A stretch of DNA of 64,000 nucleotides from Nakazawaea peltata (lineage: Eukaryota > Ascomycota > Pichiomycetes > Alaninales > Pachysolenaceae). Positions within the stretch are counted from its first letter, which is position 1. Every line of letters starts with the position of its first letter. The DNA lies in contig BCGQ01000009.1 in assembly GCA_001599355.1 (NCBI GenBank), positions 186,001 through 250,000 of the forward strand, written 5' to 3'. The translations under genes and the position numbers were made by a program. Below are positions 10,701-11,630 of this stretch, piece after piece. The notes under the pieces were generated by a model. The model had not been told where the DNA came from. It did no database searches and worked only from the letters and a program-made list of their open reading frames with translations.

Positions 10701-11571
10701 TGAAGAGATCAAGCAAGTTTGGAAGAGACGTGAGGCTTTCTACCATGAATGTTCGAACTATTACTTCTTCTCACCTCATTGTGAGACTGAGAGTCTGTTT
10801 GTTGAGTTGAGAAAGGCCTTTGAGTCGTTTGCTCTTCAAATCACCGGGGTTAAACCTGTTGAGGTTCCTTCCAAGAGATCTTACTTCGTTTGTATCAACT
10901 TCCTGGAGTTGAAGGAACATGTTTCCAAGTTGAAGGAGATCACTACTGGATGTGATGCTGTTGAGTTGAGAGTTGACCAATTGAAATCATGGGATGAGGA
11001 GTTTGTAGGTGAACAAATTGCTCAATTGAGAGCCTCAACTAACCTTCCAATCATCTTCACTATCAGAACTAAGGAACAAGGAGGAGCTTTCCCTAACCAA
11101 GAGGTTGAGAAGATCGAGTCTTTGATCAAGTTTGCTTTCAAGATCGGGGTAGCTTATGTTGACTTGGAATTGTCTTTACCAAGTGGTGTACTTGATACTT
11201 TAGCCGCTTCCAGAGCCAGTACTAAGATCATTGGATCTCATCATGACTTTGAAGGTGCTCTTCCTTGGGGTAGTGTCGAATGGGAGAACAAGTACCTGTT
11301 GGCCGAGTCATTACAAGTTGATGTGGTCAAGTTCGTCGGAATGGCCAAGTCGTTCTCCGACAACTTGGAGCTTGAACAATTCCGTGCTCTGCATACCTCT
11401 AAACCTCTCGTTGCTATCAACATGTCTGAGACTGGTAAGTTATCGAGGGTTCTTAACCCTGTTTTGACTCCAGTTACTCATGAGTTATTACCTTCTGCTT
11501 CTGCTCCTGGTCAATTGAGTGTTAAACAAATCAACCAACTCGGAGGAGAGATCGGCTGTTTAAAAGCTTGA
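7717..11571 (+). CDS. ARO1: AROM polypeptide, first four domains (ends at frameshift site)
   Basis: This 1284-residue frame encodes the first four activities of the shikimate-pathway AROM complex, converting DAHP towards chorismate in the cytosol. Domains: 3-dehydroquinate synthase (about 1-390; [28 protein letters not shown]), EPSP synthase (about 395-845; [29 protein letters not shown]), shikimate kinase (about 855-1045; [10 protein letters not shown]-loop, STGGG), type I dehydroquinase (about 1055-1275; [27 protein letters not shown]). It stops at TGA 11569-11571, just where the shikimate dehydrogenase domain should begin; that domain continues in the -1 frame. Via a -1 shift at 11559-11565 the product would be about 1566 residues, close to the S. 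cerevisiae 1588. The codon mix, rich in TTG, GGT and GTC, suggests good expression. Confidence 0.95.
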
Positions 11572-11630
11572 GGTATTATGTGACTGGTAAACCAATTGGA
11601 CACTCGAGATCTCCAATCTTACATAATACC
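11559..11630 (+). promoter_or_regulatory. candidate -1 ribosomal frameshift signal in ARO1
   Basis: The zero frame reads TGT TTA AAA GCT TGA, so T TTA AAA (11559-11565) is an in-phase X XXY YYZ slippery heptamer one codon before the stop. A spacer of 6 bases (11566-11571) follows. Then GGTATTATGT (11572-11581) pairs perfectly with ACATAATACC (11621-11630); a G.U and an A-U pair extend the stem to 12. Inside its loop ATTGGA (11595-11600) pairs with TCCAAT (11612-11617). Slippage enters AGC TTG AGG, the shikimate dehydrogenase frame. The arrangement is seen directly; function is inference. A missing A in the A-run would give the same fused peptide. Confidence 0.65.

Follow-up and report, generated by a model that had tools for sequence, protein, structure and literature searches.

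The ARO1 gene in the window (the whole 64-kb stretch of DNA analysed here) is divided between two reading frames, and the features of the sequence at the junction suggest that it is probably a programmed −1 ribosomal frameshift site. This reading is favoured over both an error in the sequence and a recent mutation. The zero frame opens with the ATG at 7717 and closes with the TGA at 11569-11571, its last codons being TGT TTA AAA GCT TGA. An earlier note on this DNA had described this ending, with a slippery heptamer in phase one codon ahead of the stop, and the sequence contains it. The layout of the gene and of the slippery site is as follows.

7717-11571, plus strand: zero frame of ARO1, encoding DHQ synthase, EPSP synthase, shikimate kinase and type I dehydroquinase (DHQase) (open reading frame, Pfam and alignment to 7u5s)
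11526-12416, plus strand: −1 frame of ARO1, encoding the shikimate dehydrogenase (SDH) domain (open reading frame; Pfam Shikimate_dh_N and SDH_C; 7u5s residues 1269-1549)
11559-11565, plus strand: slippery heptamer T TTA AAA, in phase (sequence)
11566-11571, plus strand: 6-nt spacer, the last three bases of which are the zero-frame TGA (sequence)

Several features of a programmed −1 site are found together: the frame change coincides with an in-phase heptamer of the form X XXY YYZ, the −1 frame encodes a real protein domain (SDH), and the spacer, within the range of about 5-9 nt, is followed by a structure predicted to be stable.

The domain content was studied by comparison with Pfam and with two solved PDB chains, 7u5s, which we take to be C. 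albicans Aro1, and 6hqv, which we take to be C. thermophilum AROM. The zero frame covered residues 2-1267 of 7u5s, and the SDH part matched residues 1269-1549 with an E value of 9.9e-98. The SDH part was open for 282 codons without a further stop, matched 7u5s over its whole length and retained the blocks SRSP, PLK, VNT, NTD and NQG, presumably those of the active site, while its match to PF01488 lay under the curated Pfam cut-off (22.6 vs 24.3). The earlier claim of a −1 frame open from 11526 and carrying an intact SDH domain was thus borne out by both Pfam and PDB; there is no ATG before 11709, which by hand count on the translation lies ~ 50 residues inside the domain. Taken over both frames, the five AROM domains are present and in order, as judged from Pfam and the PDB chains. 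They do not form a single continuous reading frame, there being a TGA at 11569 and the SDH domain lying in the −1 frame. When the frames were joined at the heptamer, zero-frame residue 1280 came to lie opposite 7u5s residue 1267 and the Ser following the heptamer opposite residue 1271, without a gap. Because the slipped product GCLKSLRYYV aligned gaplessly with 7u5s residues 1267-1276, the frame change was placed in the linker directly before SDH. Four of the five CTG codons in the DHQ synthase part stood opposite alanine in at least one of the two solved AROM chains, and none stood opposite leucine or serine in these chains, indicating the CUG-Ala group of yeasts, which is described as including Pachysolen, Nakazawaea and Peterozyma (PMC5951914).

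Downstream of the spacer, a 12-bp stem is predicted to be stem 1 of an H-type three-stem pseudoknot. In frameshift pseudoknots of this type, stem 2 joins the loop of stem 1 to sequence on its 3′ side, and a third stem lies between. The predicted elements, in order along the RNA, are the following.

11572-11583, plus strand: stem 1, 5′ arm (prediction)
11586-11593, plus strand: stem 2, 5′ arm, GGTAAACC, after the 2-nt loop 1 (11584-11585) (prediction)
11595-11600, plus strand: stem 3, 5′ arm (prediction)
11612-11617, plus strand: stem 3, 3′ arm (prediction)
11619-11630, plus strand: stem 1, 3′ arm (prediction)
11636-11647, plus strand: segment pairing with 11559-11570 (the slippery site) in the nested fold (fold prediction)
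11646-11653, plus strand: stem 2, 3′ arm, GGTTTACC, after the 15-nt loop 3 (11631-11645) (prediction)

The stem of 10 bp six bases on from the heptamer, extendable to 12 and enclosing a 6-bp hairpin, had been seen before and was recovered by fold prediction. Stem 1 consists of 10 unbroken Watson-Crick pairs (11572-11581/11621-11630) continued inward by a G-U and an A-U pair. G-C pairs make up only three of the 12, and the AU-rich nature of this stem counts against programmed frameshifting. A stem 2 and an intervening third stem were both found, by prediction: stem 2 has eight perfect pairs between the loop of stem 1 and the sequence 3′ of stem 1, and stem 3 has 6 bp between the arms of stems 2 and 1, with one unpaired nucleotide on each side. 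The duplex energies were −13.2 kcal/mol for stem 1 and −10.0 kcal/mol for stem 2. The nested fold at the junction was a 90-nt imperfect hairpin, in which the segment at 11636-11647, sharing 2 nt with stem 2, pairs with the slippery site; this pairing would presumably be open while a ribosome occupies that site. A search of Rfam over 11400-11800 returned a single match, to mir-24 on the minus strand, whose 16.2 bits fall short of the gathering score of 50, and this was taken as chance.

The chance level of such a structure was estimated on 30 coding pieces of the window, the broken dehydrogenase, the PCM1-like relic (both described below) and a few small or end-cut open reading frames having been omitted. 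Among 15,967 codon positions, a sample that excludes the ARO1 site in its own register, a stem 1 of at least 12 bp (G-U allowed, spacer 5-9) was present at 63, and a stem 1 of at least 12 together with a stem 2 of at least 8 (spacer 5-9) at none. Note that stem 2 was spotted by eye first and its statistics were computed afterwards, which weighs against the programmed reading. The strict 10-bp stem was found once in 16,087, and by its register this instance is probably the ARO1 site itself. Synonymous recoding at the codon usages of upstream ARO1, of SDH and of eight other genes gave both stems in 0, 2 and 2 of 4000 sequences, respectively. Singly the stems recurred, stem 2 of at least 8 alone in 95 to 163 of 4000 and stem 1 of at least 12 in 12 to 56, and part of the pairing is therefore supplied by the amino acids. 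According to the earlier note, the stem would be left unexplained by a deletion; this holds statistically, and in that sense alone.

Folding energy was a less distinctive property. The fold gave a z of −3.35, with 0 of 200 shuffles equally good, and the energy of the 59-nt hairpin was equalled by 7, 102 and 35 of 1500 synonymous recodings at the three codon usages. The plain folding energy was matched by 1.5% of coding stretches of 60 nt and by 4.6% of those of 80 nt; an energy no further out than this, and equalled by some recodings, is a point against programmed frameshifting. Among the 35 in-phase heptamers, that of ARO1 had the longest stem 1 (12) and the longest stem 2 (8), and its energy was the lowest, narrowly, at −16.6 vs −16.4 for the next two. 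When pseudoknots were scored blind to the heptamer, the junction came top of 324 in ARO1 with a score of −32.1, almost equalled by a pseudoknot-like segment at 9342-9408 in the EPSP synthase part (−31.95). Over the window the junction ranked 12th of 5,705 on both strands, 11 scoring higher, and fourth of 3,036 on the plus strand. The near-equal segment at 9342 and the 11 better ones also speak against the programmed reading.

In-phase X XXY YYZ heptamers numbered 34 per 17,167 codons in the coding pieces of the window, a figure that differs from the 35 given above probably because the first count halts before the end of each open reading frame, where the ARO1 heptamer lies. Deletion of one base per run was simulated for 36,647 runs of all lengths, and 207 of these then carried an in-phase heptamer where the frame was broken; among the 115 runs of at least five, none did. 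A stop no more than three codons away, which followed in 20% of the simulated deletions, is not rare. Neither is TTA AAA rare as a coding of Leu-Lys (7% at ARO1 usage, 15% at the usage of 28 other open reading frames), and its presence at the junction for that reason argues against programming.

It has been put forward by Garcia and colleagues that a slippery site should show as differences in codon bias across the mRNA (PMC6169388). In the joined ARO1 the codon-bias changepoint fell at codon 1274 with each of three outside references and at codon 1301 with a reference derived from ARO1, and the junction, codon 1283, lay inside all four 90% intervals (1189-1354, 1176-1361, 1217-1330 and 1257-1391). 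The p value was 0.0005 for each reference, which is the floor of 2,000 shuffles. The bias dropped from DHQase to SDH (p 0.0002-0.0012). When sites were split by identity to 7u5s, an analysis covering DHQ synthase, DHQase and SDH with EPSP synthase and shikimate kinase left unaligned, the drop was seen both at identical and at differing sites (p 0.0012-0.028; DHQ synthase plus DHQase vs SDH), and lower conservation is thus unlikely to be the source of the lower SDH bias. DHQase, with an identity to 7u5s of 0.44, was also more biased than SDH (0.54), although this comparison is weak because DHQase is inactive in C. albicans (PMC9074039) and has perhaps diverged there for that reason. An effect of the 3′ end was not seen, the last 282 codons falling slightly in bias in two of 10 other genes and rising in eight.

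The bias of the first four domains was exceeded by only NOP58 among 27 other genes. The SDH part still surpassed between 12 and 21 of these genes, depending on the reference, which counts against programmed frameshifting. Changepoints were also sought in 18 other genes: only that of CAT2 was a drop, with a p of 0.51, and that of EFR was equal in size to the one in ARO1, yet was a rise, after codon 61 near the start of the gene. The existence of a step of equal size elsewhere again weakens the case. The step near the junction is as expected if SDH is read by fewer ribosomes; against this, the junction coincides with a domain boundary, and lower SDH bias might be found in fungal ARO1 genes generally. 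A dicodon coding score dipped at 11530-11636, the ARO1 signal stopping at 11529 and the SDH signal starting at 11637, and the dip consists largely of the heptamer and the stems.

Elsewhere in the window, Pfam was run on 37 of 50 open reading frames of at least 130 amino acids, the remaining 13 overlapping these in other frames. A coding-potential scan found a long same-strand frame switch in ARO1 only; a 32-codon stretch in another frame at 53889-53984, inside a PP2C-like open reading frame, is probably noise. At 43625-43638, a run of 13 G is followed by the sole N of the window. Two neighbours of ARO1 appear broken.

4714-5778, minus strand: gene for a short-chain dehydrogenase, interrupted in frame by a TAG at 5236-5238 (CAA CAA TAG TTG GAT)
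5870-6307, extending upstream to ~ 6540, minus strand: relic that resembles the C terminus of a phosphoacetylglucosamine mutase of the PCM1/AGM1 type, contains an internal stop and apparently lacks a piece

Both halves of the dehydrogenase gene retain coding potential, and its TAG could be a nonsense mutation, an error or a site of readthrough. The relic matched PGM_PMM_IV slightly below the Pfam cut-off; the name PCM1 and the missing piece are our assumption. The two breaks suggest that real gene damage occurs in the region, and neither is a frameshift next to a slip signal.

The most serious rival explanation is that a base is missing from the short A run through an error of sequencing or assembly, and that the true ARO1 is one continuous frame. 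The slipped product and the continuous-frame protein would be the same, so a missing base accounts fully for the two frames. Draft genomes often contain errors of this sort, and the 90-nt imperfect hairpin could disturb sequencing or assembly. However, the A run is just four long, the coding-potential scan of the window shows no second long same-strand frame switch, and an error leaves the heptamer, the pseudoknot and the codon-bias step unpredicted; we regard it as rather unlikely. A real frameshift mutation of recent date, leaving a young pseudogene or accompanied by another, intact ARO1 in the genome, the slip features being there by chance or providing some accidental rescue, is given less weight again. 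It would agree with the broken state of the two neighbouring genes, 6 kb away, which counts to that extent against programmed frameshifting, and a second ARO1 could exist, the view of the genome being confined to the 64-kb window. Set against it are an SDH part that runs through 282 codons with no stop and can be aligned to 7u5s along its length, the lack of time it would presumably have allowed for the fall in codon bias, and the essential nature of the Aro1 SDH in C. albicans (PMC9074039). An old pseudogene was ruled out, the SDH part being free of additional stops and breaks of frame and having kept its motifs.

It is very improbable that the frames are joined or split in any other way, whether through an intron, editing of the RNA, slippage during transcription or an SDH start of its own, and no point in favour of these was found. 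Four A residues are generally short for slippage by a polymerase. The joined alignment to 7u5s is gapless and therefore leaves no room for an intron, which was ruled out at the junction, as was an independent SDH start, the first ATG lying within the domain. Programmed −1 frameshifting is considered the likeliest explanation because a random deletion would not predict that a position in the linker, a heptamer in phase, a fall in codon bias and, at the right distance, the gene's strongest pseudoknot should come together. The same proposal in the earlier note was partly supported, being strengthened by the predicted pseudoknot and the bias change. Our confidence is kept only somewhat above even because a scan of many genomes yields coincidences and because the pseudoknot was tested after it had been sighted. 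A further point against programmed frameshifting is that the UGA, ~ 845 nt ahead of the SDH stop, might draw nonsense-mediated decay.

If ARO1 is frameshifted in this way, most ribosomes would halt at the UGA and release a four-domain Aro1 of 1,284 amino acids. A minority, delayed by the pseudoknot, would slip back one base at U UUA AAA as their Leu and Lys tRNAs pair anew with UUU AAA, and would continue into SDH to give the five-domain form of ~ 1,566 amino acids; slippage may thereby set the ratio of SDH to the other activities. Judging from codon bias, this state could have lasted long enough for the synonymous sites of SDH to have lost part of the bias kept by the rest of the gene, and its origin may have been the loss of one base that was tolerated because the site slipped already. 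A fuller version, which we put forward tentatively and at slightly less than even confidence, is that an old, selected three-stem −1 site uncouples SDH from the other four AROM enzymes, that cells hold a majority of four-domain and a minority of five-domain Aro1, and that the arrangement is probably shared with other CUG-Ala yeasts. If true, one site decides whether an ancient fused enzyme receives its last domain, and gene fusion, usually thought to fix a one-to-one ratio of steps, is undone at translation. The gene would also offer a natural test of whether codon bias tracks ribosome flow on one mRNA. To our knowledge, this would be the first virus-type frameshift signal in a eukaryotic housekeeping enzyme.

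A literature search, largely of titles and abstracts and with supplementary files and most subscription papers outside it, found no report of frameshifting in ARO1 and no paper tying ribosomal frameshifting to shikimate dehydrogenase. Scans for relatives over viral and bacterial or archaeal contigs gave three distant bacterial loci, which were not used, and no fungal ARO1. A survey of 390 fungal EPSPS proteins describes the loss of Shikimate_DH from many branches and its disruption in some (PMC9394408); the PF01488 match under the cut-off here implies that part of this loss may be weak matching. A paper of 2013 presents −1 frameshifting as mainly a viral phenomenon, to which cells provide very few exceptions (PMC3777964). 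The earlier note knew of no cellular case in ARO1, and none came to light; a cellular −1 site is nevertheless on record in a fungus, in PaYIP3 of Podospora anserina, where it is conserved in Pezizomycotina and has an efficiency of 1% in S. cerevisiae (PMC3777964). PaYIP3 is also treated in a review whose abstract describes frameshifting as a correction of indels (PMC5009743). What is new here is the predicted three-stem pseudoknot at the ARO1 junction, with its coronavirus-like layout, fungal cellular −1 sites being known already.

As described for PaYIP3 (PMC3777964), the ARO1 site would be a cellular one in a nuclear fungal gene, with a short zero-frame and a longer −1 product and a possible downstream pseudoknot. 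PaYIP3 differs in slipping at U UUU UCC, with its structure 2 nt downstream, and in having an extension with no known domain (PMC3777964); ARO1 has a standard heptamer and a spacer of 6 nt, and its −1 frame encodes an enzyme domain from a housekeeping pathway. Conservation and expression have been demonstrated for PaYIP3 (PMC3777964), while the ARO1 site is known here from one sequence. The fungal AROM/Aro1 proteins 7u5s and 6hqv have the same five domains in the same order, and the junction is gapless against 7u5s once joined; unlike in these proteins, SDH here lies in the −1 frame, beyond a stop.

The stem order of the predicted ARO1 pseudoknot presumably agrees with that of the SARS-CoV-2 element. 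Unlike the viral element, that of ARO1 is cellular and has an AU-rich stem 1, the viral stem 1 being GC-rich at its base; the ARO1 element is predicted, and no relation in sequence is claimed. The SARS-CoV-2 element is described as having the heptamer U UUA AAC and a three-stemmed H-type pseudoknot, with a near zero-frame stop that promotes slipping (PMC8168617). A U UUA AAx heptamer, a close zero-frame stop and, by prediction in ARO1, an H-type three-stem pseudoknot are accordingly what the two have in common (PMC8168617).
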